DNA of 28,713 bases, taken from IMG/VR virus record IMGVR_UViG_3300025889_000698, positions 1 through 28,713 of that record. The stretch is one strand, 5' to 3'. The notes beneath the pieces were generated by a model that searched no databases, was not told the DNA's origin, and worked only from the letters and a program-made list of their open reading frames with translations. Of this stretch, positions 1-20,118 are shown piece after piece. The number at the start of each line of letters is the position of its first letter. The first letter of the stretch is position 1. The DNA comes from a virus. A program made the position numbers and the translations under genes.

Positions 1-133
1 ACTTGGGATGAGATAAACATCCTTGTATATTTATAAGGTCTTAATTCTGTCTTTGTTTGTAATTAAAGGGGAGTGGTGTAAAAGCTGTTCCTCTTTTTTT
101 TTGCAACACACTTGCGTATATCGTAAAGTTTTA
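1..133. repeat. Left copy of the terminal direct repeat
   Basis: These bases match 28581-28713 except at base 7 (G here, A at 28587). The two ends therefore overlap, which means a circular assembly of about 28,580 bp, or a short real terminal redundancy. The repeat holds a terminator and ends inside the -33/-7 spacer of the first promoter. The single mismatch suggests strain variation or a read error. Confidence 0.95.
65..102 (+). terminator. Rho-independent terminator upstream of the early genes
   Basis: AAAGGGGAGT (65-74) pairs with GTTCCTCTTT (87-96) over ten pairs, three of them G-U, followed by a run of T to 102. In the closed circle it lies just after ninG and ends the preceding transcription unit, isolating it from the early promoter that begins at 112. 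Confidence 0.7.
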
Positions 134-141
134 TAAATTTG
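112..141 (+). promoter_or_regulatory. Host-type (Bacteroidota sigma-70) early promoter
   Basis: TTG at 112-114 and TAAATTTG at 134-141 are separated by 19 bases. This is the known Bacteroidota consensus, TTG then TAnnTTTG. The transcript should start near 148, about 10 bases before the first gene at 159. It sits directly after a terminator, so it is the likely start of early transcription by unmodified host polymerase. Confidence 0.8.
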
Positions 142-2231: not shown

Positions 2232-2423
2232 ATGATTATTCAAATCGGAGATAGTCAGATACACATCCAGTTCGTCCCAACCTACGGATTGGCACTTGGG
2301 TATCTATTCTACAATCCACTACAAGAACCCGATACAGACGAGATAGACGAAGACGATTATTATGAAAGACACACAGTCTTACTAACGCTCTTTGCTCTAA
2401 TCGTTACTGTATGGAAATCTTAA
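2232..2423 (+). CDS. Small acidic protein with a C-terminal hydrophobic segment, 63 aa
   Basis: The middle contains an acidic stretch (DTDEIDEDDYYE, residues 34-45). The last 18 residues are hydrophobic (LLTLFALIVTVW) and could be a membrane anchor. The gene starts two bases after the helicase stop and overlaps the sigma-factor gene by 13 bases, so the three are probably translated in a coupled way. A small acidic protein placed directly before a sigma gene could be an anti-sigma or co-regulator, but nothing in the sequence proves it. I do not recognise a family. Confidence 0.55.
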   Translation: MIIQIGDSQIHIQFVPTYGLALGYLFYNPLQEPDTDEIDEDDYYERHTVLLTLFALIVTVWKS

Positions 2424-2881
2424 AGAAGCTATTCGAACGACATAGAGACTGGTGCGACATCGTGGAGTCTTTTGGCTGTAACCCTGAAACTGCTGAAGAT
2501 ATCGTGCAGTCGATGTACCTGCGTATCGGTAAGTTAGTAGCAGATGGCAAGGATATTACATTTGGTAATGATGTAAACCACTTCTACATCTTTAGAACGC
2601 TCACTACTATTTTCTTAGATCACAAAAGAAGAGAACGTAAGGAAGGAGATTTTGACTTCGATAACTACGATATTGAAGACGATGAGCAGGTTGAGTACAA
2701 GAAAAAGTACGATATTATTTTAGAGGAGTTAGAAAATATGTACTGGTACGATAAGAAGGTCTATGAGATTATCGAATCAGGAGAAAGCATATCAGAGCTT
2801 AGTAGAAAGACCAACATTAGCTACTACTCACTATACAATACTTACAAGAAGGTAAAGAAATACTTAAAAGATAAACTATAA
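2411..2881 (+). CDS. Phage-encoded ECF-like RNA polymerase sigma factor, 156 aa
   Basis: The protein has the two-domain plan of extracytoplasmic-function sigma factors. Residues about 13-75 resemble region 2, with TAEDIVQSMYLRIGK and FYIFRTLTTIFLDHKRRERK, the part that binds core polymerase and the -10 box. An acidic linker follows. Residues about 110-154 resemble the region 4 helix-turn-helix (ESISELSRKTNISYYSLYNTYKKVKKYL), which reads the -35 box. No region 1 or 3 is present, as expected for the class. It most likely directs host core polymerase to the five GCAAAA/CGTTATATA promoters before the virion genes. It lies in the early/middle region, before all those sites. The pairing with the promoters is inference. 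Confidence 0.8.
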   Translation: MEILKKLFERHRDWCDIVESFGCNPETAEDIVQSMYLRIGKLVADGKDITFGNDVNHFYIFRTLTTIFLDHKRRERKEGDFDFDNYDIEDDEQVEYKKKYDIILEELENMYWYDKKVYEIIESGESISELSRKTNISYYSLYNTYKKVKKYLKDKL

Positions 2882-4873: not shown

Positions 4874-4904
4874 TTGCATATTAACATTTGTTGAATTAGA
4901 TTTG
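4874..4904 (+). promoter_or_regulatory. Second host-type promoter
   Basis: TTG at 4874-4876 and TAGATTTG at 4897-4904 are 20 bases apart, an exact match to the Bacteroidota consensus. The transcript should begin near 4911, about 24 bases before the ATG at 4935. It probably drives the replication and recombination block from 4935 to 8111. Confidence 0.8.
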
Positions 4905-7072: not shown

Positions 7073-7282
7073 ATGATAGATAATATTGTAGAAAGAGTTG
7101 TATCTTTATTTAGGAGTAGATCTCAAAGAGGTATAGAAAAATACGGAACAACATTAGAAGAAAACGAATTAAGTAACTCAGAGTGGCTACAACATCTTCA
7201 GGAGGAGTTAATGGATGCAGCATTATATGTCGAAAAGATAAAATCAATAATAGATGAACAAGAGAGTAGAAAGACTGATTAG
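7073..7282 (+). CDS. MazG-like nucleotide pyrophosphohydrolase, 69 aa
   Basis: The sequence GIEKYGTTLEEN followed by WLQHLQEELMDAALYVEKI (about residues 20-56) matches small all-alpha NTP pyrophosphohydrolases found in phages. The EE and D residues of EELMDA (44-49) are expected to bind Mg and the nucleotide phosphates. It may clean the nucleotide pool or lower alarmone levels to aid phage growth. It is short for the family, a minimal version. The gene lies nine bases after the exonuclease gene and overlaps the DnaA-like gene by 29 bases. Confidence 0.6.
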   Translation: MIDNIVERVVSLFRSRSQRGIEKYGTTLEENELSNSEWLQHLQEELMDAALYVEKIKSIIDEQESRKTD

Positions 7283-7649
7283 AGAAATTGAAAAGGAAGC
7301 AAGAATTGATTTATTCAGAAACACACGAAAAAGAGAATATACAGAAGCGCGAGCTTTATTCAGCTACTTCCTAAGAAACTATTTCGGATATAAACTACAC
7401 GAGATTGTAGAGATATATAAGAAGAATGGATTTAACACCCATCACGCTACTATCCTGTATGCAAACAGAAACTACAAGGATTCTTATTTGCCATTCTCAC
7501 GCTTTCTAAAGGACTTAGATGAGAAGATGTATATCAAGTTCGGCAATCATCAAGAAGTGAAGATACGAAGCCTTAAAATGCGGATAGATAGCCTTCCTGA
7601 GAATAAGTTAGATGAAGCAAAGCGTTTAATAGAAGAACTGATCGACTAA
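7254..7649 (+). CDS. DnaA domain IV-like DNA-binding protein, 131 aa
   Basis: Residues 24-75 resemble the DNA-binding domain IV of DnaA: REYTEARALFSYFLR, then LHEIVEIYKKNGF, then the signature-like HHATILYA (63-70), close to the DnaA signature DHTTVLHA. The AAA+ ATPase domain is missing, so it cannot act as a full initiator by itself. It may mark the phage origin or recruit host DnaA or the phage helicase. The remaining C-terminus is helical. The gene begins inside its upstream neighbour and ends one base before the next gene. Confidence 0.75.
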   Translation: MNKRVERLIREIEKEARIDLFRNTRKREYTEARALFSYFLRNYFGYKLHEIVEIYKKNGFNTHHATILYANRNYKDSYLPFSRFLKDLDEKMYIKFGNHQEVKIRSLKMRIDSLPENKLDEAKRLIEELID

Positions 7650-7944: not shown

Positions 7945-8111
7945 TGGCTGAGGTACTTGAACTAAGATGCGAATTACAACAATCAGCTATTATAAAAGAA
8001 GTAATGTTCGGGGGGATAATAGTACTACTAATACAAGCAGCTTTGAACTTAGCACTACTGTATCTTTTGAACCTGAGGCAAAAAACTGATTCTCAATCGT
8101 TATATAAGTAG
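7944..8111 (+). CDS. Small membrane protein, 55 aa
   Basis: One transmembrane helix is evident (FGGIIVLLIQAALNLALLYL, about residues 22-41) after a charged N-terminal helix. The start overlaps the upstream stop (TAATG). Its last codons contain the -10 box of the first late promoter (8098-8110), so the end of this gene and the promoter share bases. Function is unknown; a holin or superinfection-exclusion role is possible, but it lies far from the lysis genes. Confidence 0.6.
   Translation: MAEVLELRCELQQSAIIKEVMFGGIIVLLIQAALNLALLYLLNLRQKTDSQSLYK
8078..8110 (+). promoter_or_regulatory. Putative phage sigma promoter, copy A (terminase unit)
   Basis: GCAAAA at 8078-8083 and CGTTATATAAGTA at 8098-8110 are 20 bases apart start to start, the same spacing as in the four other copies. 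The start is expected near 8110, which leaves a leader of about 28 bases before terS at 8138. This copy lies inside the end of the preceding gene, so selection on the protein may explain its slightly altered end (AAGTA instead of AGATA). Confidence 0.75.
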
Positions 8112-8137
8112 GATTGAATAATCAAACATTTTCAATT

Positions 8138-8401
8138 ATGGATAAAAGAGTAAATAACGGAGGAGCAAGAGAAGGTGCAGGAAGAAAACCTAAATCAGAT
8201 GAGCTTAAACTGGTAGAGGCTCTTGATAAGCATATAGATCAAGAAGAAGTATTTGACACTTTACACGGTCTTATTAAAGAAGGTAACATTAGAGCGATAC
8301 AACTCTATATGAACTACAGACACGGTAAGCCGAAAGAGAATGTAACATTATCTTCTGATGGATTCGAAATTAACTTCAAAGACTTGTTGAGGTTCGAGTA
8401 G
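8138..8401 (+). CDS. Terminase small subunit, 87 aa
   Basis: The N-terminal NNGGAREGAGRKPKSDE segment (about residues 6-22) is the known start pattern of many phage small terminases, where a basic helix-turn-helix binds the packaging site. A helical oligomerisation part follows (residues 25-68). It should recognise phage DNA and stimulate the large subunit. I chose the ATG at 8138; an earlier in-frame TTG at 8114 lies closer to the promoter and is unlikely. The stop is directly followed by the GTG start of terL. Confidence 0.75.
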   Translation: MDKRVNNGGAREGAGRKPKSDELKLVEALDKHIDQEEVFDTLHGLIKEGNIRAIQLYMNYRHGKPKENVTLSSDGFEINFKDLLRFE

Positions 8402-9607
8402 GTGATCACCATTCAAAAGAAGTACGAGGTATTAAGGGACTCCGATAGTCGCTATTTTATTATTAGCGGTGGCAGGGCATCGGGTAAGTCCTTTAATATT
8501 TCTATTTTAATTCTCTTACTAACATTCGAGAAAGAACATACCATACTATTTACGAGGTACACTCTTACCTCAGCTTCCATTTCTATTATACCTGAGTTCT
8601 TAGAGAAGATAGAGCTTCTTGGTTTAGTAGATCGCTTTCATATCACAAAGGATGAGATTATCAACAGAATAACAGGAAGTAAGATTATATTCAAAGGTAT
8701 CAAGACCAGTTCAGGAGATCAGACCGCTTCATTAAAATCTATTCAAGGTGTTACTACTTGGGTACTGGAAGAAGCAGAGGAACTAACAGATGAGAAGAAA
8801 TTCGACACGATAGACTTCTCTATCCGTTCTAAGAAGAATCAGAACAGAGTCATCTTAATCTTAAACCCTACTACTAAGGAGCATTTTATTTACAGAAGGT
8901 TCTTTGAGGACAGAGGTGTACAGGAAGGGAGCAACATAACGAAAGGAGATACTACCTATATACACTCTACCTACTTAGATAACATCAAGTACCTCAACGA
9001 GTCATTCATAGCTCAGATCGAGCAGATGAGAACAAGAAGACCTGAGAAGTTTAAGCATCAAATCTTAGGTGGGTGGTTAGACAAAGCTGAGGGTGTCATC
9101 TTTACGAACTGGGAGATAGGAGAATTTAAGAAATCAGGCACAAGTGTATTCGGTCAGGATTACGGATTTAGTAACGACCCTACAACGCTCATAGAAACGA
9201 ATATAGATAAGTCTAACAAACGAATATACCTTAGAGAGTGTTTCTACTTACCAAGACTTACAACAAGCGAGATATCACGTTTAAATAGGCAATACGCAGG
9301 TGATGCATTAATCATAGGAGATAGTGCAGAACCAAGATTGATTACAGAGCTGCGTAGAGAAAGCAATATTAGAGAATCAGTAAAAGGACAAGGAAGTGTA
9401 ACCTACGGGATAAGTCTAATGCAAGACTACGATTTGATTATAGACCCTAACAGTACTAACCTCATCAAAGAGTTGAATAATTACAGTTGGCTTGAGAGAA
9501 AGAGCAACACTCCGATAGATGACCATAACCACTTAATAGATGCAGCACGATACGCAATAAGCTATCAATTAAAAAATCCTAACTATGGAAGTTACGCTGT
9601 AAGATAA
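8402..9607 (+). CDS. Terminase large subunit, 401 aa
   Basis: This is the packaging motor. The Walker A motif GGRASGKS is at residues 23-30, the Walker B with catalytic Glu at 121-128 (VLEEAEEL), and the coupling segment LILNPTTKE near 152-160. The nuclease domain has the three metal-binding Asp: D253 (FGQDYGF), D307 (IIGDSAE) and D380 (HLIDAARY). It matches the PBSX/Terminase_3 type. It pumps DNA into the prohead through the portal (20541) and cuts it at the end. It starts with GTG right after terS. It is complete at a normal length and is followed by a terminator at 9659. Confidence 0.95.
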   Translation: MITIQKKYEVLRDSDSRYFIISGGRASGKSFNISILILLLTFEKEHTILFTRYTLTSASISIIPEFLEKIELLGLVDRFHITKDEIINRITGSKIIFKGIKTSSGDQTASLKSIQGVTTWVLEEAEELTDEKKFDTIDFSIRSKKNQNRVILILNPTTKEHFIYRRFFEDRGVQEGSNITKGDTTYIHSTYLDNIKYLNESFIAQIEQMRTRRPEKFKHQILGGWLDKAEGVIFTNWEIGEFKKSGTSVFGQDYGFSNDPTTLIETNIDKSNKRIYLRECFYLPRLTTSEISRLNRQYAGDALIIGDSAEPRLITELRRESNIRESVKGQGSVTYGISLMQDYDLIIDPNSTNLIKELNNYSWLERKSNTPIDDHNHLIDAARYAISYQLKNPNYGSYAVR

Positions 9608-9610
9608 TTT

Positions 9611-9625
9611 TTACTATATTAGTAA
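9611..9625. other. Perfect inverted repeat TTACTATATTAGTAA
   Basis: TTACTA and TAGTAA are exact reverse complements with a three-base spacer, four bases after the end of terL. It has too few GC pairs for a good terminator and lies before the real one at 9659. It could be an operator or a protein-binding site, but one copy is weak evidence. Confidence 0.35.
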
Positions 9626-9658
9626 CTCATAAGGTTTATTAGTTTGTTTGAATTGAAG

Positions 9659-9688
9659 AAGGCAGTCCCGTAAGGCTGTCTTTTTTTT
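9659..9688 (+). terminator. Terminator after terL
   Basis: AAGGCAG (9659-9665) pairs with CTGTCTT (9676-9682), with one G-U pair, followed by eight T ending at 9688. It closes the terminase unit just before late promoter copy B, so the tail unit is transcribed separately. Confidence 0.85.
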
Positions 9689-9691
9689 ATT

Positions 9692-9724
9692 CTAAAACTA
9701 CCAGTTTCATTCGTTATATAGATA
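9692..9724 (+). promoter_or_regulatory. Putative phage sigma promoter, copy B (tail unit)
   Basis: CTAAAA at 9692-9697 (two changes from GCAAAA) and CGTTATATAGATA at 9712-9724 keep the 20-base spacing. It starts four bases after a terminator. The ATG at 9737 is 25 bases after the C of the -10 box, the same offset as in copy E, and both share AAGAG in the leader. Confidence 0.8.
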
Positions 9725-9736
9725 AGAGTAATATTT

Positions 9737-10387
9737 ATGAAATTACAAATCAATGTACCAAGCGAACTTGGCGAGATCACATTAGGTCAGTATCAGAAGT
9801 TCGTTAAACTGTATCAGGGAGAAGTTACAGAGGAGTTTATGGCATTGAAGATGCTTGAGATATTCTGCGGAGTAAAACTCAAGGATGCTTACCAAATGCG
9901 CTACAAAGATGTGGACGGAGTTGTTGAGGTTCTAAGCTCAATGCTAAATCAGAAACCTCAGCTTGTGCAACGATTCAAATTAGGAGACGTGGAGTATGGC
10001 TTCATTCCTAATCTTGATGATATGTCTTTTGGTGAGTATGTGGATTTAGATACTTACTTAGGAAACTGGGAAGAGATGCATAGAGCTATGGCAGTTCTTT
10101 ATCGTCCTATCAAACAGAAGCACGGTGATAAATACAACATTGTAGATTACGAAGTAGTGAACTCTGAGATGTACAAGAATATGCCAATGGATGCGGTAAT
10201 GTCTTCTATACTTTTTTTTTATCGTTTAGGGATAGACTTATCGAAAGCTATGATGAATTATTTGGAGGAGTCCAAGGAAACTCGTTTGGTGCAGTATCTC
10301 AGTTCGGACAAAAATGGGGTTGGTATCAGTCAATATACACAATCGCTCAAGGCGATCTTAGACGATTTGAACATATCACTCAGTTAA
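9737..10387 (+). CDS. Tail assembly chaperone, short form (lambda G analogue), 216 aa
   Basis: This is the unshifted product of a gene that probably makes two proteins. The sequence ITLGQYQKFVKLY and later YVDLDTYLGNWEEMHRAMAVLYRPI recurs, as far as I recall, in proteins before tape measures in Bacteroidota phages. It should bind the tape measure protein and guide tail tube assembly; it is not part of the finished virion. Near codon 159 a run of nine T (10212-10220) allows some ribosomes to slip back one base and make the longer form ending at 10470. The start follows late promoter copy B with a leader of about 13 bases. Confidence 0.65.
   Translation: MKLQINVPSELGEITLGQYQKFVKLYQGEVTEEFMALKMLEIFCGVKLKDAYQMRYKDVDGVVEVLSSMLNQKPQLVQRFKLGDVEYGFIPNLDDMSFGEYVDLDTYLGNWEEMHRAMAVLYRPIKQKHGDKYNIVDYEVVNSEMYKNMPMDAVMSSILFFYRLGIDLSKAMMNYLEESKETRLVQYLSSDKNGVGISQYTQSLKAILDDLNISLS
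10211..10220 (+). other. -1 ribosomal frameshift site (T run)
   Basis: The bases C plus nine T are read as CTT TTT TTT T in the zero frame. A slip on T TTT TTT moves ribosomes into the -1 frame, which stays open to the stop at 10468-10470. The same arrangement occurs in tail chaperones of many long-tailed phages. Confidence 0.75.
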
Positions 10388-10470
10388 AAATACATCAATG
10401 CCTTATGTTCTTGACATTCGAAAAAGAAAAGACGGAATTAGAGGCGAAACAAATAAAAGGTAGAGTATGA
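10219..10470 (+). CDS. Frameshift extension of the tail chaperone (lambda T part of GT)
   Basis: Read in the -1 frame from the T run, this region encodes 83 residues with a convincing protein sequence: FGAVSQFGQKWGWYQSIYTI, then AQGDLRRFEHITQLKIHQCL. It has no start codon of its own near the beginning, so it is made only as a fusion with the first about 161 codons of the gene at 9737, giving about 244 aa. Its TGA stop overlaps the next ATG as ATGA (10467-10470), a normal coupling that would be left unexplained if the unshifted stop at 10387 were the only end. The T part in lambda contacts the tube protein. Confidence 0.75.
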   Translation, partial: LSFRDRLIESYDELFGGVQGNSFGAVSQFGQKWGWYQSIYTIAQGDLRRFEHITQLKIHQCLMFLTFEKEKTELEAKQIKGRV

Positions 10471-10931
10471 GCGTAATGAACGGCTTTTATAGGGTAATGG
10501 AAACATTGAAGGATGAGCTTCAAGCAGACCCTAATTGCAACACGATAACTTTCGGAGATATCTCTGAGGTTGATCTAAGCAAGCAAACTATATTTCCACT
10601 ATCACACATTATTCTTAACGGAGCAACAAGCGGTGAGAACGTAATGACCTTTAACGTATCTATCCTATCAATGGATATTGTAGATATAAGCAAAGATGAG
10701 GTAACCGATATATTCGTGGGTAATGACAATGAGCAAGATGTGCTTAATACGCAGCTTAGTGTTTTGAATAAGGTAATTCAGAAACTAAGAATCGGTTCAT
10801 TATATGCAGAAAAGTATCAAGTAGTAGGCGATGTAGGTTTAGAGCCATTTAGAGATAGATTCGAGAATCAGATCGCAGGATGGACAGCAACCTTTGATGT
10901 AATGATTGCAAATGACGTAAACGTCTGCTAA
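10467..10931 (+). CDS. Putative tail completion/terminator protein, 154 aa
   Basis: The protein has an N-terminal helix (FYRVMETLKDELQ), then alternating strands, and ends in GWTATFDVMIANDVNVC, a terminal block I know from small head-tail proteins of Bacteroidota phages. Length and fold pattern fit a tail terminator, which caps the tube, or a neck protein. It overlaps the frameshift product by four bases and the next gene by one base. The family name is not certain; structural function is well supported by place. Confidence 0.6.
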   Translation: MSVMNGFYRVMETLKDELQADPNCNTITFGDISEVDLSKQTIFPLSHIILNGATSGENVMTFNVSILSMDIVDISKDEVTDIFVGNDNEQDVLNTQLSVLNKVIQKLRIGSLYAEKYQVVGDVGLEPFRDRFENQIAGWTATFDVMIANDVNVC

Positions 10932-11458
10932 TGGATTTTAAAGAGACAGAAAAGGCATTAAATGCATTCGCTAAGAAAGTAATTAGAGATGCTAAGAAGA
11001 ACCTGAACAGACGTAAGATAAGTGCTTCGGGTAATCTTGCTCGTTCTCTAAACTATGACTTAGATGTATTCCCTAATTCCTTCTCTTTAGATATCAATAT
11101 GGAGGACTATGGTAAGTTCATTGACAAAGGGGTGCAAGGAGCAGACCCTGCAAAGTCTAAGAACAGAACCAGTCCTTATAAATACTCAGGAAGGTTTAAA
11201 ATGATACCTCCTTCCAGTTTAGATAAGTGGGTAATTAAGAAAGGTATTAAAGGAGTAAGAGACGAAAAAGGAAAATTCATTAAAAGACAAAGTTTGAAGT
11301 ATGCATTAGCAACGAGTATTTATCAGAAAGGTATTCGTGCGAGCTTGTTTCTTACTAAGCCATTTGAGGCTGCTTTTAAAGGACTTCCAGATCAAATAAT
11401 AAAAGCATACGCATTAGACGTAGAAGATTTCTTAGAGTTCACAATAGACACTAATTAA
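10931..11458 (+). CDS. HK97 gp10-like tail completion protein, 175 aa
   Basis: The basic N-terminal helix (KALNAFAKKVIRDAKKNLNR) and the central YGKFIDKGVQG motif (about residues 60-70) recall HK97 gp10-type proteins, which join the tail to the head connector. An insertion-like basic loop (GVRDEKGKFIKRQS) follows. It overlaps the preceding gene by one base. It should act in the neck of the particle. No signal peptide or membrane helix is present, as expected for a virion assembly protein. Confidence 0.6.
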   Translation: MDFKETEKALNAFAKKVIRDAKKNLNRRKISASGNLARSLNYDLDVFPNSFSLDINMEDYGKFIDKGVQGADPAKSKNRTSPYKYSGRFKMIPPSSLDKWVIKKGIKGVRDEKGKFIKRQSLKYALATSIYQKGIRASLFLTKPFEAAFKGLPDQIIKAYALDVEDFLEFTIDTN

Positions 11459-11481
11459 AAGGTATTTTAAGACATAAATAA

Positions 11482-12438
11482 ATGGCAACAAGCGTAGGGG
11501 TTAGAAGCCCATATTGGATAGAAAGCGATGCGGGTGCAACTGCAAACTCATATAAGTTTCAGATTACCATAGATGGTACACTTACTTATACGATTGTAAA
11601 GAATGCATCGGATATTAACAAAGCAGGAATCGATGTATCTGAATTAGTAAAAGATTATATAGATATCGCATATACAGGCTCTTTACCTGTAGGTACTTCT
11701 GTTCCTACGGACTGGGGTATTGATTGGAGTGCTTCTATAATTGCATACACAGGAGAAGATGCAACAGGTTCTACTGTTGGTAGTCCTGAGTTATATTCAA
11801 CAAGAGATGCTTATTTAGGGTATGCTTATTATTCTGATGAAGAACCTGAGTTTATTTATTCAAGTACCACTCCATTAATCAGTAGTTACACGCTATGGTA
11901 TCCTGAATCGACTTCGGGATATTTCTATTCTAACGAAGCGGGTACAATTACACGCAAAACAGTAAGTACCTCAGCAACGAGTGTATCAGCAGGAGGTCAA
12001 ACAATCACCATTAAGCGATTCCCTTGTAATAAGTACGATGATGTAAAACTTGTATTCATCAACCGATATGGTATGCTACAAGAGTTATACTTCTTTGCTA
12101 AGAATACAGAAAGCACCAGTTTCACAAGAGACAGCTACAAGGCGAATGTATTTGACTATGCAGGTATTTATGAAAAGGAATCACACCAAGTAAGAAACTT
12201 CAATACAAACGCTAAGACACGATACGAACTAAGTACAGGATACATATCAGAGGACTACAACGAGTTCATTAAAGAATTGATGTTATCTGAAAAAGTATGG
12301 GCGCATATAGATGGTGAAGTACGACCTGTAAATGTTACAGATACTAATGTTGCTTACAAGACTTCAGTAAATGACAAATTAGTGGCTTATACAGTAGTCG
12401 TAGAACAAGCGAATGATTTAATTTCTTCAATGAGATAA
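11482..12438 (+). CDS. Virion tail protein, unassigned, 318 aa
   Basis: This is a beta-rich, Ser/Thr/Tyr-rich protein with no catalytic motif, typical of structural tail proteins. N-terminal SVGVRSPYWIESDAG and DVSELVKDYIDI suggest a domain for assembly; the C-terminal half contains TRYELSTGYISEDYNEFIKE and LMLSEKVWAHIDG, patterns that recur in tail proteins of Bacteroidota phages as far as I recall. The ATG overlaps nothing; the stop overlaps the next start by one base, so the two are coupled and probably contact each other. It could be a tail tip or baseplate component. Confidence 0.55.
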   Translation: MATSVGVRSPYWIESDAGATANSYKFQITIDGTLTYTIVKNASDINKAGIDVSELVKDYIDIAYTGSLPVGTSVPTDWGIDWSASIIAYTGEDATGSTVGSPELYSTRDAYLGYAYYSDEEPEFIYSSTTPLISSYTLWYPESTSGYFYSNEAGTITRKTVSTSATSVSAGGQTITIKRFPCNKYDDVKLVFINRYGMLQELYFFAKNTESTSFTRDSYKANVFDYAGIYEKESHQVRNFNTNAKTRYELSTGYISEDYNEFIKELMLSEKVWAHIDGEVRPVNVTDTNVAYKTSVNDKLVAYTVVVEQANDLISSMR

Positions 12439-14399
12439 TGCAGAATTTATCATTATACATAGAAGGTACTAAAGTGGACTTGTTTAGGGATGAGGTGATA
12501 TCTCTTACTCAGACAATTCAGAACGTACGGGATATTGAGAAAGTCTTTACGGACTTCTCTAAGTCTTTTACGATTCCTGCTTCCAGTACCAACAATAAGA
12601 TATTCAAGCACTATTATAATTTCGATATTATAGATGGGTTTGATGCAAGAAAGAAGGTAGCAGCTAAGATCGAGTTGAATGGAATACCGTTTACAGCAGG
12701 AAGAGTTAAGCTTGAGGGGGTAGATTTAAAAGACAATAAAGCTTATGCGTATCGAGTTACTTTCTTTGGAAATACGGTAAACCTTAAAGATAAGTTAGGA
12801 GAAACTAAGCTATCTGCTCTTACTTGGCTGAATAATTTTCAATACGATTACGATGCAGCTTCAGTTAGGGCAATTATGCAAGGTGGTGGAGATATCACGG
12901 TAGATAGTGTTTTATATAGCGATGCTATTAAGTGTCCTCTTATTTCTTACGACCAATTAATCACTATCTCAGCTCCTAATATCTCAGCAACATACGATAA
13001 GTTCAAATACGGAATTAGATTATGGCTTATTATAAAAGCTATTGAGGAGCAAGGTTTAGGAATCACATTCACAAGCGATTCTTTCATTAAGCAAACAAGC
13101 AATGCTCAGTTCTATGATTTGTATATGTGGATGCATAGAAGAGAGGGTGATGTTTTTCAATCCGGAGATATAACAGAATTATATACTTCTTTTACTCCTG
13201 ATACTACTTCAATGACAGGGGTATTTTTAGATACTGCGGCTTTAGTAATAACGGGGCTTACAGGAGGTCAATATATTAATTATTTATTGGATGTAACAAC
13301 CTCAACAACCAACGACTATACTATCACTATTAAAAAGGATGGGTTTACTTATGCGACTAAAGTAGTTTCGGGCGGAGGAGATACAACTCTTACGGGTGTA
13401 TTATATAATGCTCCCTTTGGATATGAGGTTTATATTACGGGAACAGGAACAGATTCGTTTACTATAGATTGGGAATTGACCAATAGTTTTTTAGGCGAGT
13501 TCAATGACTATACGGGAGGGTCTTTTCCTTTAGGTAGTAGCTTTATTTTTTATCCTCAACAGCAAATACCGGATATGAAGATCGTGGATTTTCTTGGAGG
13601 GTTATTCAAGATGTTCAATCTAACTGCTTACGAAACGGATAATGGAGAGATTAAAGTACAGACCTTAGATGACTTCTACGCTACTGGTACGACACGAGAT
13701 ATAAGCAAGTATGTCGATGTCAATGAAAGTTCGGTAGATGTAGCCTTACCATACCGAGAGATTAAATTCCAATACGAAGGAAGAGACACTTACCTATCTA
13801 AGCAATATGAGCAAGAGAATCTTATCGGTTGGGGTAGTACTGAATATAACGGAGGCGATACTTACAATGGAGATACTTATGAGGTAACACTTCCATTTGA
13901 GCATATGCAGTATTTTAGATTGTCAAGCTCTACGATTCAGATCGGTCAGTTTAGTGATGAGCCACTTACAAACACGAATGACTCTGCCCCTTACTTTGAT
14001 AAGCCTTTATTGTTTTATGCACCGATTGTAGTAGGAGGGGATACGGTAACCATTTCAGGAACTGCAATAACCACTTATTTTATTCCTTCTAATTCAGTAG
14101 GTACAGATGCAGGTATTAATGATGATACTTGCCACTTCTCAGTAGAGATAAACGAATACACAGGAGGTTCAAACTTTGACGGTTCGCTATTCGCTAACTA
14201 CTATGAGAATTATATCGCAGATGTATTCAACTCTAAGAGGCGATTAACAAAAGTGAAGGCTTGGTTACCAGTTAGCTTCCTAACAAATTACACGCTTGCA
14301 GATACTTTAGAGATCAACACACGAAAATATAGAATTAACTCAATCACTACCAACCTCAACACAGGACAGAGCAGTTTAGAGTTATTAAACATAGTATAA
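12438..14399 (+). CDS. Large tail tip/hub-type protein with an insert-like domain, 653 aa
   Basis: The N-terminal region (LSLYIEGTKVDLF, FTDFSKSFTIPASSTNN) and the C-terminal region (residues about 370-653, with KIVDFLGGLFKMFNLTAY and YRINSIT) frame a tail-tip or hub-like protein. Residues about 240-375 form a Thr/Gly-rich beta domain (TGLTGGQYINYLLDVT, YEVYITGTGTDSFTIDWELT) that looks like an immunoglobulin-like insertion. The only two CCGG sites I found in the window, 13162 and 13569, lie in its DNA, which suggests a recent origin. The gene lies between a tail gene and the tape measure. The exact tail position is unproven. Confidence 0.55.
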   Translation: MQNLSLYIEGTKVDLFRDEVISLTQTIQNVRDIEKVFTDFSKSFTIPASSTNNKIFKHYYNFDIIDGFDARKKVAAKIELNGIPFTAGRVKLEGVDLKDNKAYAYRVTFFGNTVNLKDKLGETKLSALTWLNNFQYDYDAASVRAIMQGGGDITVDSVLYSDAIKCPLISYDQLITISAPNISATYDKFKYGIRLWLIIKAIEEQGLGITFTSDSFIKQTSNAQFYDLYMWMHRREGDVFQSGDITELYTSFTPDTTSMTGVFLDTAALVITGLTGGQYINYLLDVTTSTTNDYTITIKKDGFTYATKVVSGGGDTTLTGVLYNAPFGYEVYITGTGTDSFTIDWELTNSFLGEFNDYTGGSFPLGSSFIFYPQQQIPDMKIVDFLGGLFKMFNLTAYETDNGEIKVQTLDDFYATGTTRDISKYVDVNESSVDVALPYREIKFQYEGRDTYLSKQYEQENLIGWGSTEYNGGDTYNGDTYEVTLPFEHMQYFRLSSSTIQIGQFSDEPLTNTNDSAPYFDKPLLFYAPIVVGGDTVTISGTAITTYFIPSNSVGTDAGINDDTCHFSVEINEYTGGSNFDGSLFANYYENYIADVFNSKRRLTKVKAWLPVSFLTNYTLADTLEINTRKYRINSITTNLNTGQSSLELLNIV

Positions 14400-14540
14400 A
14401 TGATACAGAACATTTTAGAGCTATTAGAACTATCGGAAGGTGAGACTGAGAACATTAGAATTGCTAAAGGGAAGTACTATCTACCTAAGAAATTCTCTGA
14501 GATTTACAAACATCAAAAAAAGACTTATAAATGGCAATAG
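14400..14540 (+). CDS. Small protein between tail tip and tape measure, 46 aa
   Basis: The short product begins MIQNILELLELSEGET and ends KTYKWQ; the middle is basic. It starts directly after the previous stop and overlaps the tape measure start by 10 bases, so it fills the gap completely and keeps the packed operon. No motif is visible. It may be a small assembly factor, but its short length limits confidence. Confidence 0.55.
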   Translation: MIQNILELLELSEGETENIRIAKGKYYLPKKFSEIYKHQKKTYKWQ

Positions 14541-15934
14541 AAAAGGAAATAGAAATTGTAGTAAAATCCGATCAGGCAGTCAATGGTCTGAACAGGGTTG
14601 AAGATGCTCTCGAAAGGGTAGATAAAGCTGCGGAACAAGCAACAGAGGAAACTAAGGGTCTTGGTCAAGAGGTTGGTGAGTCAGGTGCTGCGATAAGTTT
14701 ATTAGATGCTGCTACTGGTGGTCTTGCATCACGAGTTAGAGATGTTGCTGAAGTTTATAAGCAATTTAGAGGTAGAATTAGAGCAGTAACTCTTGCACAA
14801 TTAAAAGCAAATGCTGCGTTTTTAGCAAACCCTGTAGTATTAGTTACTACTGCGGTAGTTGCAGCTACGGGTGCATTAGCTAAATACGCTTCTAAACTAA
14901 CAGGTGATGTAGTACCTATAACCACGAGTCTTAAAAATATATTTCTATCATTAGGTGATGCAGCAAGATTCGCACGCTTACAAGCGGAGTCTTATACAGA
15001 ATTTGCTACAGAGCAACAGATCAAAGAAACTGAAAGAGCAATAGCAGTATTAAAGGCTTACGGACAAGATACTATTGATTTAGAGATAGAAAATCAAAGA
15101 AGAAGATTGTCTGCTTTTGAGAAAGGTTCTCAAGAATACTTTGATGCTCAGACTCAACTTAGTGTACTTATCGCTCAAAAGGATGTAGCTATAACTAAGG
15201 CGAAAGAAGAAGAGAAAGCAAGAATCGAAGCAGAGGCTGAGGAGAAGAGAAAACAAGCAGCAGCCGATGAGGAAGCAAGAGTTAAGAAAGAGTTTGCAGA
15301 TAGACAAGCAGTAAATAAGGAAATAGAGAAAGGCTACAAGCTACAAGGTGAAGCATTAGAAACAAGAATAAGAAAAGAAAGCCTATTACAAGCAAAAGGT
15401 CTTACAGAGGGGTTAAAAGAGTACCAAGCGACAAGAATACAGGAAAAGAAAATAGATGAGGTAACTGCTCAACAGAAATTACAATTAGCCTCTCAAACAT
15501 TTGGAGCATTAGCAGGTATATTAGGACAGAACAGTAAAGTAGGTAAAGCTGCGGGTATTGCACAAGCGATTATAAACACTTATCAAGGGGTTACAGAGGT
15601 GCTTTCTAATAAGACAACACTACCCGAGCCATTTGGTACTATTCAGAAGATTGCATCAACTGCTACAGTACTTGCTTCAGGATTCCAAGCGGTAAGAGCT
15701 ATGCAACAAACACCTATTCCAGTAATTGCAGCAGGTGGAGGCTTTGGAGGAGGAGCAGGAGTTGCAATACCTACACCACCACAAATAAACACAGTTGGAG
15801 CTTCAGGAGTTAATCAGTTAGCTGAGGTAATCGGTGGACAGACCAAGCAACCAGTAAGAGCGTATGTAGTAGCAGGAGATGTAACTACTGCACAATCACT
15901 TGAAAGAAATACAATTAAGGAAGCCTCAATTTAA
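14531..15934 (+). CDS. Tape measure protein, 467 aa
   Basis: The protein has the hallmarks of a tape measure: a helical N-terminus (GLNRVEDALERVDKAAEQAT), a hydrophobic segment (ANPVVLVTTAVVAATGALA, about residues 98-116), a long charged coiled coil rich in Glu, Lys and Ala (about 160-320), a Gly-rich part (AAGGGFGGGAG) and the terminal PVRAYVVAGDVTTAQSLERN, which I have seen in phage tape measures. It sets tail length and is held by the chaperones from 9737. At 467 aa it is short, so a tail of perhaps 70 nm is expected. Confidence 0.8.
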   Translation: MAIEKEIEIVVKSDQAVNGLNRVEDALERVDKAAEQATEETKGLGQEVGESGAAISLLDAATGGLASRVRDVAEVYKQFRGRIRAVTLAQLKANAAFLANPVVLVTTAVVAATGALAKYASKLTGDVVPITTSLKNIFLSLGDAARFARLQAESYTEFATEQQIKETERAIAVLKAYGQDTIDLEIENQRRRLSAFEKGSQEYFDAQTQLSVLIAQKDVAITKAKEEEKARIEAEAEEKRKQAAADEEARVKKEFADRQAVNKEIEKGYKLQGEALETRIRKESLLQAKGLTEGLKEYQATRIQEKKIDEVTAQQKLQLASQTFGALAGILGQNSKVGKAAGIAQAIINTYQGVTEVLSNKTTLPEPFGTIQKIASTATVLASGFQAVRAMQQTPIPVIAAGGGFGGGAGVAIPTPPQINTVGASGVNQLAEVIGGQTKQPVRAYVVAGDVTTAQSLERNTIKEASI

Positions 15935-15937
15935 AAG

Positions 15938-15970
15938 GCAAAATAAACCAACAAAGTCGTTATATAGATA
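15938..15970 (+). promoter_or_regulatory. Putative phage sigma promoter, copy C (leaderless type)
   Basis: GCAAAA at 15938-15943 and CGTTATATAGATA at 15958-15970 have the fixed 20-base spacing. The A of the start codon is the last base of the motif, exactly 12 bases after the C of the -10 box. Transcription should therefore begin at or very near the ATG, giving a leaderless message. Confidence 0.8.
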
Positions 15971-16917
15971 TGAAGATTATTGAACTCATCTTAGACGAAG
16001 AGAACGAAATAGCAGGAGTAGAAGCTATCTCGGTAGTAGAAAACCCTGCAATAGAAGAAGATTTTATCGCTTTAGCAGATCAAGAGATTAAACTTGCTGA
16101 GGTAGATAAAGAGAAGCGTATCCTTATGGGGGCGTTACTTATCCCTAATAAGCCTATTTACAGAAGAAACGCTGAGGAGGAGTACTATGTGTACTTTTCT
16201 AAAGATACTATCCGTAAAACGGCTGAGATGTTCTTGATGAAAGGGAATCAGAACAATTCAACATTAGAACACCAACTACCACTTAACGGATTATCACTTG
16301 TCGAGTCTTGGATTGTAGAAGATAATGAGAAAGACAAGAGCAGACTGTATAATATGAATGTGCCTGTAGGTACTTGGATGGGTGCAGTCAAGGTAAACAA
16401 CGAAGAGATTTGGAATGACTATGTAAAAACTGGTAAGGTAAAAGGATTCTCTATTGAGGGGTACTTTGCTGATAAGATGCCAAGACCTGAAGAGTCAATC
16501 CAAGAAGAGCTTAGTAAGATTGAAGAAGAAGAAGCAGATACACTACTATCTACTATCAAAGCGATCATCAAAGGTGATAAGCGAGTAAAGGGTGGTAAGC
16601 GTACAGAATTAGAATCTTATTCGGATTATCCTGATGGTGTTAAGAATAACGCTAAAAGAGGTATTGATCTAAATGAAAAGAACAATAACAAGTGTGCTAC
16701 TCAAGTAGGTAAGATCAGAGCGCAACAACTTGCAAAAGGTGAGCCTATCTCAGTAGAGACTATCAAGAGAATGTACTCTTACTTATCAAGAGCAGAAGAA
16801 TACTATGATGAAAGCGATACAAGTGCTTGTGGCACTATTTCGTATTTGCTATGGGGTGGCAAAGCGGGAAGACGTTGGGCTGAGGCGAAATTAAAAGAAC
16901 TTGGTATTAATGGCTAA
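15970..16917 (+). CDS. XkdF-like prohead protease with a C-terminal extra domain, 315 aa
   Basis: Residues 1-170 match XkdF-type putative prohead proteases: IPNKPIYRR, YYVYFSKDTI, NNSTLEHQ (with the likely catalytic His), LVESWIVED, VPVGTWMGAVKV and VKGFSIEG. It should mature the prohead by cutting the scaffold and capsid proteins. Residues about 205-315 form a second domain (YPDGVKNNAKRGIDLNEKNN, IKRMYSYLSRAEEYYD, YLLWGGKAGRRWAE) that is found fused to phage proteins but, to my knowledge, has no clear role. The gene begins at its own late promoter with a probably leaderless start. Confidence 0.75.
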   Translation: MKIIELILDEENEIAGVEAISVVENPAIEEDFIALADQEIKLAEVDKEKRILMGALLIPNKPIYRRNAEEEYYVYFSKDTIRKTAEMFLMKGNQNNSTLEHQLPLNGLSLVESWIVEDNEKDKSRLYNMNVPVGTWMGAVKVNNEEIWNDYVKTGKVKGFSIEGYFADKMPRPEESIQEELSKIEEEEADTLLSTIKAIIKGDKRVKGGKRTELESYSDYPDGVKNNAKRGIDLNEKNNNKCATQVGKIRAQQLAKGEPISVETIKRMYSYLSRAEEYYDESDTSACGTISYLLWGGKAGRRWAEAKLKELGING

Positions 16918-17038
16918 GCAGACTGCTCATATTAAGATCGCTAAACCTAAGAAGTTTGGCGTACAAGCTAAGAGCAGAACAAGTAAGCTAAAGAGTTCTA
17001 AGAATTACAGAAAACCATATAGAGGACAAGGTAGATAA
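16910..17038 (+). CDS. Small basic protein, 42 aa
   Basis: About a third of the residues are Lys or Arg, ending in SSKNYRKPYRGQGR. I recall similar tiny basic proteins beside capsid genes of Bacteroidota phages, also with a final RGQGR. It could bind packaged DNA or RNA, or cement the head, but no function is known to me. It overlaps the protease stop by eight bases and shares one base with the next start (TAATG), a tidy arrangement that supports it as a gene. Confidence 0.65.
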   Translation: MAKQTAHIKIAKPKKFGVQAKSRTSKLKSSKNYRKPYRGQGR

Positions 17039-17673
17039 TGGCAACAGTAAACAATACATCTTATAAAATACAAGCTGACGTAGATACTGAAGCAGTAAGA
17101 CTACAATACAACATCGAGGAGGGTGCATTTGTAACAACCTCAGCAGGTGTTTGGACTGTTTACAATGGCGAGTGGGTTAAGTTATATCCACAATCAGGAG
17201 CGGGTACTGGAATGGGTTGGGCAAGATATGATGACTCAACATATACCTCATCTAACAAGTTAGCCTTAGCCTTAGATACAGAAGTAGTACTACCTAACGA
17301 TGCGGGAACTGTTTATAGAAGCAATACAGGAATTGACTACTATGATTCATCTACTCAGAAGGTATTAGCCGATAACGAGAACGATACTTACTTAATGACA
17401 GTAGTGTTTAAGTACTCAGCTCCTAATGCAAATCAGACTTACTTAGAGATGCACTTTCAAGGAGGTAACGGAACACCATACGATAGAATACGAGATACGA
17501 TTACCTTCCCTAAAGGAAACGATACAGAACACGATCACCACGCAGTATTCCAGTACTATGCAGATTCAAGTTTCGCTGTAAATGGTAGCCAATGGAAAAT
17601 CACAGCTAACGGAGGTACTGCTGATGTGTGGGATATTATCTTCTTCATTCAAAAAGTACAGAATTATGGATAA
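17038..17673 (+). CDS. Virion structural protein, possible head decoration, 211 aa
   Basis: This is a beta-rich protein without enzyme motifs. The N-terminal half is Thr/Tyr-rich (YNIEEGAFVTTSAGVWTVYNG) with trimer-like turn patterns, and the C-terminal half ends in GGTADVWDIIFFIQKVQNYG. A HDHH cluster at about residue 165 may bind metal. Its place between the protease and scaffold genes suggests a head-associated role, as decoration or fibre. It shares its first base with the previous stop and overlaps the next gene by eight bases. Family unassigned. Confidence 0.6.
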   Translation: MATVNNTSYKIQADVDTEAVRLQYNIEEGAFVTTSAGVWTVYNGEWVKLYPQSGAGTGMGWARYDDSTYTSSNKLALALDTEVVLPNDAGTVYRSNTGIDYYDSSTQKVLADNENDTYLMTVVFKYSAPNANQTYLEMHFQGGNGTPYDRIRDTITFPKGNDTEHDHHAVFQYYADSSFAVNGSQWKITANGGTADVWDIIFFIQKVQNYG

Positions 17674-17812
17674 GAACAAGACACCATCGTATTCAAGCCC
17701 TAAAGGTTCATCAAGAGGCTGCTTATGCAAAGATTCTAATACTTACTCAAGAAAGTGCTGTGATGGCTCTCTATGGGCGCAAGGCATTGGAAGAACAAGA
17801 GGAACTGAATAA
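17666..17812 (+). CDS. Small cysteine-rich protein, 48 aa
   Basis: The product starts MDKNKTPSYSSPKGSSRGCL and includes CKDSNTYSRKCCDGSLWAQG. Four Cys in a 17-residue stretch suggest a metal site or disulfide knot. I recall related short KGSSRGCLC-type proteins in Bacteroidota phages and genomes. It overlaps the previous gene by eight bases. A different frame here also stays open to 17828, but it lacks a good start; the Cys-rich frame fits the packing of genes better. Function unknown. Confidence 0.6.
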   Translation: MDKNKTPSYSSPKGSSRGCLCKDSNTYSRKCCDGSLWAQGIGRTRGTE

Positions 17813-17819
17813 CGAAAAT

Positions 17820-17852
17820 GCAAAATAAAAATCAATAACCGTTATATAAATA
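17820..17852 (+). promoter_or_regulatory. Putative phage sigma promoter, copy D (leaderless type, capsid unit)
   Basis: GCAAAA at 17820-17825 and CGTTATATAAATA at 17840-17852 keep the 20-base spacing. As in copy C, the ATG begins exactly 12 bases after the C of the -10 box. It lies in the gap before the scaffold gene and probably gives the strong late expression of scaffold and capsid. Confidence 0.8.
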
Positions 17853-18469
17853 TGAAACCAACAGAAATGCTAAAAGAAATCAAGAATCTATTAGGTATTG
17901 AGTTGTCTGCTGAAGCTGAGGTTAAAGTAGAGTTAGCTCAAATGACATTAGAGAATGGTACTATCTTGGAAGCAGAGGAGTTCGCACCTGAAATGGAGGT
18001 ATTCATCATTACTGAAGAGGACAAAATTGCTCTTCCTATTGGTGAATATACTTTAGAAGATGGTCGTATTCTTGTTGTAGAAGAGGAAGGTATCATTAAG
18101 GAACTTAAGGCTGCTGAAGCTGCTGAGGAAGCCCCTGAGGCGGAAGTAGAAGTAGAAGCTGCTGAAGAGGAAATGCCAATCGAAGAGGAACTTCCTGCTG
18201 AGATGGGTTACGTAAAGAAAGAGGAATTTGCTCAAGCAATGGAAGAAGTAAAATCAATGATTGACGAGATTCGTGTAATTGTTGATGATGCTAAAGCTAA
18301 AGAAGAGATGGCTGAACAAGTGAAAGCTGAATTATCTGCTACACCTGCTGCTGCTCCACTTAAGCACAATCCAGAAGCAAAAGCTGAAAAACAATCTTTC
18401 AATATCGCAAACAAAAGAGCTGAATCAACTCGTGATCGAGTATTCTCTAAGCTTGCAAATCTTAAATAA
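17852..18469 (+). CDS. Putative scaffolding protein, 205 aa
   Basis: This very acidic protein has the composition and place of a capsid scaffold. It holds repeated Glu/Ala stretches (AAEAAEEAPEAEVEVEAAEE), a helical segment (KKEEFAQAMEEVKSMIDEIR) and a basic C-terminus (RAESTRDRVFSKLANLK) that would bind capsid protein. It should direct prohead assembly and be cut by the XkdF-like protease. The N-terminus resembles short beta repeats (MTLENGTILEAEEF and YTLEDGRILVVEEE), perhaps a duplicated unit. It stands directly before the capsid gene and starts without a leader. Confidence 0.75.
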   Translation: MKPTEMLKEIKNLLGIELSAEAEVKVELAQMTLENGTILEAEEFAPEMEVFIITEEDKIALPIGEYTLEDGRILVVEEEGIIKELKAAEAAEEAPEAEVEVEAAEEEMPIEEELPAEMGYVKKEEFAQAMEEVKSMIDEIRVIVDDAKAKEEMAEQVKAELSATPAAAPLKHNPEAKAEKQSFNIANKRAESTRDRVFSKLANLK

Positions 18470-18490
18470 TTAAAACTTAAATAAACAAAA

Positions 18491-19435
18491 ATGGCAACAA
18501 CAACTTCAATCACTTCAACCTACGCAGGGGAGTTTGCAGGTAAATATATCGCTGCTGCTCTTCTAAGTGGTTCTACTATCGAAAACGGTGGTATCGAGGT
18601 AAAACCTAATGTTAAATACAAAGAGGTTATCAAGAAAGTAGCTACTGATTCTAACGTAATCAAAGATGCTACTTGCGACTTTACAGACACAGCTACTGTA
18701 ACTCTAACTGAGCGTATTCTTGCTCCTGAAGAGTTCCAAGTAAACTTAGAGTTCTGTAAAAAAGACTTCCATTCAGATTGGGAAGCTGTACAAATGGGAT
18801 ATTCTGCATTTGACAACCTACCTCCTGCATTCTCTGACTTCATCATCGCTCACGTAGCTGGTCTTGTAGCTGAGAAAACTGAACAAAACATTTGGAGCGG
18901 TGCTACTGGTACTGCAGGTGAGTTTGACGGTATCGTTACTCTTGCAACTGCTGATGCAGATGTAATTGATGTAGCAGGTGCTGCGGGTGGAATCACTTCA
19001 TCTAACGTAATTACTGAGTTAGGTAAAGTAGTAGATGCTATTCCTTCTGCACTTTACGGAAAAGAGGATTTATACCTTTATGTTTCTCAATCAGTTGCTC
19101 GTGATTATGTTCGTTCATTAGGCGGATTCGGAGCTAACGGATTAGGTGCAAACGGGGTAAACAACCAAGGTACTCAATGGTGGAATAACGGAGGTTTATC
19201 TTTTGATGGTGTTAAGTTATTCGTAGCTAACGGTATGGATGATGATTACATCGTAGCTGCTCAGAAAAGCAATCTTTTCTTCGGCACGGGCTTACTCTCT
19301 GATCATCAGGAAGTTCGCCTTTTAGATATGGCTGACCTTGATGGTTCACAAAACGTACGAGTAATTATGCGCTTTACAGCAGGTGTACAATACGGAATCG
19401 GTTCTGATATCGTTCTTTACACTCCTACTGCTTAA
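18491..19435 (+). CDS. Major capsid protein, 314 aa
   Basis: Length, place after the scaffold and before a strong terminator, and sequence all fit an HK97-fold capsid protein. The pattern ends with VRVIMRFTAGVQYGIGSDIVLY, and YLYVSQSVARDYVRSLGG lies in the A-domain-like region. An early FAGKYIAAALLSGSTIENGG segment would be the N-arm. It builds the icosahedral head. The codons are unusually uniform (GCT, GGT, GAA), consistent with high expression. No accessory domain is inserted. The neighbours protease, scaffold and portal support the call. Confidence 0.85.
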   Translation: MATTTSITSTYAGEFAGKYIAAALLSGSTIENGGIEVKPNVKYKEVIKKVATDSNVIKDATCDFTDTATVTLTERILAPEEFQVNLEFCKKDFHSDWEAVQMGYSAFDNLPPAFSDFIIAHVAGLVAEKTEQNIWSGATGTAGEFDGIVTLATADADVIDVAGAAGGITSSNVITELGKVVDAIPSALYGKEDLYLYVSQSVARDYVRSLGGFGANGLGANGVNNQGTQWWNNGGLSFDGVKLFVANGMDDDYIVAAQKSNLFFGTGLLSDHQEVRLLDMADLDGSQNVRVIMRFTAGVQYGIGSDIVLYTPTA

Positions 19436-19458
19436 TTAAACAAATTGTCTAACGAAAG

Positions 19459-19496
19459 AGGGTAGGTAAGCCACTTGAGCCTACCTGCCCTTTTTT
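19459..19496 (+). terminator. Strong terminator after the capsid gene
   Basis: AGGGTAGGTAAGC (19459-19471) pairs with GCCTACCTGCCCT (19479-19491) over 13 positions with one G-U and one mismatch, a seven-base loop and six T to 19496. It probably sharply reduces transcription downstream of the capsid gene, so capsid message is most abundant. Confidence 0.9.
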
Positions 19497-19510
19497 AATT
19501 TATAAAACTT

Positions 19511-20029
19511 ATGGCTTGTTCATTATCACTTACAGGAAGACAGTTTCCTTGTGCAAAAGCGGTAGGGGGTCTTAAAAAGATTTTCTTTGCTTCTTATGTA
19601 GAAGGCGGTCTTACTATCACGGCAGGAGCAGTAGATGGTACTTGGTACGGGTACGACCTAAGAGGTGCGTCATCTGTAGAAACCGCTATCAACGGCTCTC
19701 GTGAAAACAACTCTATTTTCTATACACAAACAGTAAGTATCCAGTTACCACTTCTTGACTCTGCAACTCAAGATGAGATCAAACTATTAGCTGCTGCAAG
19801 ACCTCACATCGTAGTAGAGGACTATAACGGTCAGCAAATGGTTATTGGACTTGAGAACGGTGCAGACCTTACAGGAGGCTCACTTGCTACTGGTGCAAAT
19901 ATGGGAGACTACTCAGGATTCACTCTAACCTTCGAGGCTATGGAGAAAGAACCACCTGCGTTTATTTCTACTGCTGTTACTGATTCAGCTTCTTCACCAA
20001 TCGCACCTGCGGTTAGTGCTGCAAGTTAA
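19511..20029 (+). CDS. Putative major tail tube protein, 172 aa
   Basis: A beta-rich protein of typical tube size. The N-terminus (LSLTGRQFPCAKAVGGLKKI) is a form I know from Bacteroidota phage structural proteins annotated as tail tube. The C-terminal part alternates strands and ends in a Ser/Ala-rich tail. It would polymerise around the tape measure. It is transcribed after a strong terminator and before another, alone between them, without a late promoter of its own that I can see, so it may rely on read-through. Tube assignment is probable, not certain. Confidence 0.65.
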   Translation: MACSLSLTGRQFPCAKAVGGLKKIFFASYVEGGLTITAGAVDGTWYGYDLRGASSVETAINGSRENNSIFYTQTVSIQLPLLDSATQDEIKLLAAARPHIVVEDYNGQQMVIGLENGADLTGGSLATGANMGDYSGFTLTFEAMEKEPPAFISTAVTDSASSPIAPAVSAAS

Positions 20030-20052
20030 TCTTTAAAATAAGGATAATTAAG

Positions 20053-20075
20053 GGGGCTTTATAGCCCCTTTTTTT
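20053..20075 (+). terminator. Terminator after the tail tube candidate
   Basis: GGGGCT (20053-20058) and AGCCCC (20063-20068) form a perfect stem with a four-base loop, followed by seven T to 20075. It separates this gene from the next late unit, which starts at promoter copy E eleven bases later. Confidence 0.85.
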
Positions 20076-20085
20076 ATATCCCAAT

Positions 20086-20118
20086 GCAAATATCAAGATT
20101 TGATTCGTTATATAGATA
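20086..20118 (+). promoter_or_regulatory. Putative phage sigma promoter, copy E (portal unit)
   Basis: GCAAAT at 20086-20091 and CGTTATATAGATA at 20106-20118 show the fixed 20-base spacing. The ATG at 20131 lies 25 bases after the C of the -10 box, as in copy B. It directly follows a terminator. Confidence 0.8.

Follow-up and report, generated by a model that had tools for sequence, protein, structure and literature searches.

Comparison with described late promoter systems

The late promoters of phage T4 are read by gp55, a phage protein of the sigma family that recognizes an AT-rich -10-like box (TATAAATA); they lack a -35 element and depend on gp33 and the sliding clamp. Phages that encode a sigma factor and matching late promoters are already known, namely 7-11 (gp47) and phiEco32 (gp36). 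SaPh711_gp47 of Salmonella phage 7-11 has been experimentally proven to read the late promoters GTAAtg-(16)-aCTA (PMC8948821), whereas the promoter of Escherichia phage phiEco32 gp36 is a single element, tAATGTAtA, and gp36 has no recognisable region 4 (PMC8948821, PMC4331800). On the bacterial side, the SM6 (ECF-type) promoters of Flavobacterium psychrophilum have a CGT -10 box and a reader that was inferred to be of the ECF type (PMC9723704).

The stretch of DNA analysed here (the window) is an entire IMG/VR virus record of 28,713 bases from a tailed phage. Five elements precede its late gene units, and they are very probably bipartite late promoters read by the host core RNA polymerase together with a phage ECF-like sigma factor (2411-2881), as judged from the sequence. 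The system is predicted, by analogy, to work like that of phage 7-11, with a sigma factor that has a region 4 and with two-element promoters. Both phages have a sigma factor with a region-4-like C-terminus and bipartite late promoters, and both would use the host core RNA polymerase, which is predicted here from sequence; they differ in box sequences, host phylum and phage type, and no fusion of start codon and promoter has been described for 7-11. With phiEco32, which has a phage sigma factor for middle and late genes, the difference is that gp36 lacks region 4, whereas the sigma factor of the window has a conserved region 4 and its sites a conserved -35 box. As in the 7-11 and phiEco32 type, the sigma factor is encoded alongside the promoters and one common element lies upstream of the late gene units. 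In contrast to the single -10 element of the T4 type, the window sites carry a conserved CAAAA -35 box at a fixed distance. They have in common with SM6 the CGT in the -10 region, the flavobacterial RNA polymerase and the inferred ECF-type reader, but SM6 is a chromosomal regulon and not a phage one. The new features relative to these systems are the ATG-fused promoter and the co-divergence of sigma factor and promoter. The lineage, motif and host phylum of this sigma-promoter system appear to be undescribed, and literature searches, with subscription papers outside their reach, yielded no description of the promoter element, as the first-pass annotation of this DNA had supposed.

Five two-box elements precede the late gene units

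The source phage is marine and flavobacterial. Its nearest named relatives infect Flavobacteriaceae, and its terL shares 59% identity with the terminase large subunit of Nonlabens phage P12024L. The labels terL (8402), head protease (15970) and portal (20541) are backed by family matches, whereas the earlier labels tail chaperone (9737) and scaffold (17852) find no support in any named family. The start of terS is most likely the ATG at 8138, located 40 nt past the C of the -10 box, rather than the TTG at 8114. The relevant features of the window are as follows.

112..141, + strand: promoter-like site of the host type (TTG / TAnnTTTG) upstream of the early genes, the sigma gene among them (consensus match only)
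2411..2881, + strand: ECF-like sigma factor of 156 aa, with region 2 at residues ~1-81 and region 4 at ~92-156 (profile, alignment, predicted fold)
4874..4904, + strand: second host-type TTG / TAnnTTTG match, early region, doubtful, overlapping the start of ORF 4902 (consensus match only)
8078..8110, + strand: candidate late promoter A, -35 GCAAAA 8078-8083, -10 CGTTATATA 8098-8106, before terS (ATG 8138) and terL (8402-9607)
9655..9686, + strand: intrinsic-terminator-like hairpin and T run, immediately upstream of promoter B
9692..9724, + strand: candidate late promoter B, -35 CTAAAA 9692-9697, -10 CGTTATATA 9712-9720, before the 9737 unit and the tail-region genes to ~15934
15938..15972, + strand: candidate late promoter C, -35 GCAAAA 15938-15943, -10 CGTTATATA 15958-15966, before the head protease (ATG 15970)
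17820..17854, + strand: candidate late promoter D, -35 GCAAAA 17820-17825, -10 CGTTATATA 17840-17848, before the 17852/18491 head genes (ATG 17852)
20050..20071, + strand: intrinsic-terminator-like hairpin and T run, immediately upstream of promoter E
20086..20118, + strand: candidate late promoter E, -35 GCAAAT 20086-20091, -10 CGTTATATA 20106-20114, before 20131, the portal gene 20541 and downstream genes

All five pairs, with their 20-base offset, were found exactly where the first-pass annotation had placed them. The pattern [N][CT]AAA[AT]-N14-CGTTATATA matched the window five times in forward and not once in reverse orientation. Of 400 shuffles of the window that preserved dinucleotides, 399 had no match on either strand and the remaining one had a single match. 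A sixth CGTTATATA, at 20352, lies within an ORF and has no in-register upstream box. Promoters B and E had been described as coming straight after terminators, and the hairpins at 9655-9686 and 20050-20071 do adjoin them. The sites are also unlike the host type, as had been proposed: the TTG at -33 and TAnnTTTG at -7 of the Bacteroidota primary sigma factor are absent from all five, and the only full + strand matches in the window lie in the early region, at 112 and 4874, with none in the late region.

Conservation of the element in related phages

In 173 related loci (1.74 Mb), CAAAA-N12 to N14-C[GA][TA]TATATA was found 46 times in the forward and never in the reverse orientation, and the same boxes at any other single spacing gave at most two matches. 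The element is present upstream of the orthologues of terS, 9737, the protease, 17852 and 20131 in most of ~20 relatives. A matrix was made from the window's five sites only and was applied outside the window's clade in order to avoid circularity. With a threshold of at least 11 bits, it detected 57 of 88 target starts in other clades versus 1 of 258 control gene starts (Mann-Whitney p 2e-36, a value that overstates independence because the genomes are related), and some of the 88 targets were missed because gene starts were taken from the longest ORFs. A two-box matrix scan of the relatives was part of the check that had been suggested for the element, and its outcome favours the proposal. 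The claim of an invariant spacing needs to be narrowed: within one phage it hardly varies, if at all, but it differs by 1-2 bases between clades (CAAAA-N14, N13 or N12-C). All promoters of one clade have jointly lost the CG of their -10 box. The window's own five sites score 24.8-28.8 bits with the window matrix; in Riemerella phage CRP6 (terL 46%) a search over both strands gave only three scattered weak matches, of 13.5-16.1 bits.

IMG/VR was also scanned for CAAAA-N14-CGTTATATA, using the same boxes at N17 as a control, and a locus was considered to have the late module when it contained at least two proteins of the late module of the window phage. Among the matches listed, the late module was present in 65 of 80 loci at N14 versus 3 of 80 at N17, and at least two sites were found in 23 loci versus none (80 loci each). 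Inside the phage group 89 of the 90 N14 sites among the matches listed are located 8-50 nt ahead of a start, and the commonest site-to-start distance over all N14 sites listed is exactly 12 nt (50 sites).

The Nonlabens phages P12024L and P12024S resemble the window phage in having a homologous sigma factor and two-box sites (CAAA[AT] and CGTTAA) ahead of ATG codons, but their -10 box is CGTTAATA-like and the spacing is one base shorter. P12024L contains five CAAA[AT]-N13-CGTTAA sites, all forward and none reverse, while N12 and N19 each gave a single match; the ATG follows 12 nt after the C at four of the five and 11 nt at one. A sixth related site has N12 spacing, and P12024S carries the same five sites. 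In P12024L the sites are found ahead of genes 05, 08, 37, 42, 45 and 46. The window matrix misses the true sites of P12024L, the -10 box being different there.

Two side observations were made in these scans. In relatives, further promoter-like matches lie before other genes (L113:385, L120:5068, L123:7491), which suggests additional late units beyond the five. Five copies of an unrelated repeat, GTACAAAAA...TGCGTTATATAG, are located in two contigs (L299, L277, L313; metagenome 3300028591), in which no late module and no sigma factor were detected.

A phage-encoded ECF-like sigma factor

The protein encoded at 2411-2881 matches phrog_31712 (E 1.1e-5), the family of P12024L_35, which matches as well and whose record is annotated 'Sigma-70 region 2'. 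With Pfam Sigma70_r2 (cut-off 24 bits), the window protein scores 14.9 bits and its homologue P12024L_35 25.2 bits. In the records of P12024L and P12024S, gene products 35 and 33 are annotated only as hypothetical protein containing Sigma-70 region 2, and the records contain no promoter. Relatives of the sigma factor were found in at least 80 loci, and the sigma factor of P12024L is ~30% identical to a relative. The DNA-reading helix-turn-helix of region 4 is conserved: YYSLYNTYKKVK is invariant in 22 aligned homologues (alignment A1), and the core YYSLYNTY of the region-4 helix is kept in the more divergent sigma clade too. When 50,697 phage records were searched by tblastn, the window sigma factor had no match, and the divergent relative L128 found only P12024L/S (E 1e-6). 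Across 84,980 bacterial and archaeal species, each represented by one genome, sigma patterns matched but none was confirmed, and no prophage host was identified.

The AlphaFold2 model of the protein (pLDDT 78, pTM 0.46) matched ECF sigma factors over both domains by Foldseek and VIA-align. Region 2 (residues 1-81) aligned with E. coli sigmaE region 2 on the -10 strand (4lup, Z 8.5, 2.4 A, 76 residues) and region 4 (residues 92-156) with sigmaE region 4 on -35 DNA (2h27, Z 9.3, 2.4 A, 65 residues). The domain-level rmsd to ECF factors is 2.1-2.4 A, and the large full-length rmsd is due to the two domains being placed differently. With 156 aa and only regions 2 and 4 in the predicted model, the protein has the composition of an ECF factor (~150-190 aa). 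Fold and homology support its assignment as a divergent ECF-type sigma factor, predicted to bind core polymerase and to initiate transcription, and it is likely the reader of the five late promoters. The resemblance of the -35/-10 layout to ECF promoters, noted at first from the boxes, is matched by this encoded ECF-like protein and by its predicted likeness to sigmaE regions 2 and 4.

One record, IMGVR_UViG_3300030202_000332 (L053, G020, 53,010 bases), contains two copies of the sigma gene ~28 kb apart in one contig, which is possibly composed of two joined phage genomes.

Association and probable co-divergence of sigma factor and promoter

The sigma gene is present in all 12 terL-selected contigs of at least 25 kb. 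Among the matches listed, a sigma homologue was found in 16 of 33 motif-recruited records versus 0 of 34 wrong-spacing records (Fisher p 1e-6), and in 16 of the 23 motif-recruited records of at least 20 kb. Those of the 33 in which it was not found are fragments or chance matches. Sigma identity and motif score are correlated (rho 0.68, p 4e-4), versus a rho of -0.33 with terL identity. Phages with a distant terL (32-36%) and a closer sigma factor retain CGTTATATA; where terL is closer (70-73%) and the sigma factor diverges more, the -10 sequences are mostly different.

Promoter variation within a genome is concerted. In eight genomes none of the 36 sites is of the CG type, and CGAT occupies four of the five scored sites of one genome. 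Residues D70 and R73 of the sigma factor, which sit in helix 57-78, the predicted -10 reader, are replaced by N and K in exactly the eight non-CG genomes, a covariation that is subject to common phylogeny, as is the sigma-motif association. The same eight genomes keep YYSLYNTY and the CAAAA box, many other sigma residues differ in them, and the loss of CG may have been a single evolutionary event. The sigma factor of P12024L seemingly retains D and R at positions 70 and 73, as aligned by eye. The first-pass annotation had proposed a phage-specific late promoter class of the ECF type; the element recurs before the same five units, is rare before control genes and is tracked by an encoded ECF-like sigma factor, all of which fits that proposal, promoter function being deduced from these features.

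Alternative explanations of the element

That a host ECF sigma factor reads these promoters, the phage sigma factor having another role, is improbable. Although the ECF-type motif SM6 of F. psychrophilum does have a CGT -10 box (PMC9723704), the motif variants follow the phage sigma factor and are common to the promoters of one genome, and the phage sigma factor occurs in 12 of 12 long relatives and is enriched among the motif-recruited records in the matches listed. The elements might instead be activator sites or half-operators that act with a host promoter and are bound by another phage protein, such as that of ORF 7254-7649. This 131-aa protein has a DnaA domain-IV-like helix-turn-helix (Pfam DnaA_C-like, E 2.4e-5, below the cut-off), and its homologues are encoded upstream of terS in many relatives. 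However, no homologue was detected at the cut-off used in P12024L or in the fragments G049 and G054, which do have the motif and the sigma factor. The boxes have -35/-10 spacing, most of them lie just before a start codon, and the late region has no full + strand host-type promoter match, all of which makes such sites highly improbable.

We consider it more improbable still that the CGTTATATA box acts as a signal for translation, namely as a Kozak-like A/T-rich initiation region of Bacteroidota, with the upstream box as a by-product. The fact that 50 of the ~90 phage-group sites among the matches listed lie exactly 12 nt ahead of the start would agree with such a role, but the distance to the start ranges from 12 to ~45 nt, whereas the box-to-box spacing is fixed or nearly so within a phage. 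Moreover, the element is lacking ahead of genes inside these units (1 of 258 controls), and the flavobacterial signal that has been described consists of an A at -3 and at -6 (PMC6847099).

Proposed late switch and leader lengths

We infer binding, transcription, its timing, the start site and leaderless translation along the following lines, with the phage sigma factor as the reader. Early in infection, the host holoenzyme would transcribe the early genes, including the sigma gene, from host-type promoters. The phage sigma factor would next redirect the host core polymerase to the five late units, and the packaging, head and tail genes would be switched on as separate units, some of them insulated by terminators placed just upstream of the promoter. 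Transcription would mostly begin at the ATG or a few bases from it and yield leaderless or nearly leaderless mRNAs.

At ECF promoters, transcription starts ~12 nt downstream of the beginning of the -10 box. The start site is predicted here from this geometry only; in most promoters the ~12 nt distance ends on the ATG, so that leaders of 0-4 nt are predicted for most units. In the window, longer leaders are predicted for terS (~28 nt) and for the 9737 and 20131 units (~13 nt). Leaderless mRNAs would fit the host phylum because Shine-Dalgarno sequences are not used there. In F. psychrophilum, leaderless mRNAs make up only 5.5% (PMC9723704).

We lean slightly towards a broader reading, in which marine Bacteroidota phages of a widespread group have their late start codons hard-wired to the promoter of a phage sigma factor, leaders are absent or 0-4 nt long in most late mRNAs, and sigma factor and promoter have co-diverged (D70/R73 with CG, N70/K73 without). 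If so, leaderless late mRNAs would be made in hosts in which such mRNAs are a small minority, and the phages would hold a naturally evolved series of specificities of an ECF-like sigma factor. A temporal switch and its reader protein would be assigned to an uncultured, widespread phage group from the DNA alone. The cultured phage P12024L/S makes the switch directly testable, the fusion of promoter and ATG makes leaderless translation in Bacteroidota testable, and the co-diverged set is useful for understanding how small sigma factors select -10 sequences.

Additional features of the window and its relatives

The window encodes a Dam-type DNA methyltransferase at 3066-3485 and, ~700 bases downstream, at 4185-4856, a protein that weakly matches MjaI restriction endonuclease (E 2.9e-4, below the cut-off). 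A hairpin in the terS leader was an attractive candidate since inverted repeats recur there, but single-sequence folding was not clearly better than that of shuffles (z -1.3, 0.3, -0.3 and -2.0). The repeats themselves, at 8113-8140, are TTGATTAATCAA-like and are followed by TTTTTCAAT ahead of the ATG; they may serve as an operator or a pac-type site, or form an RNA structure. Inverted repeats of this leader are also found in relatives, e.g. at L009:3108-3158 and L093:2773-2828, and the terS leader of L093 contains an additional GAGTGT...ACACTC repeat.
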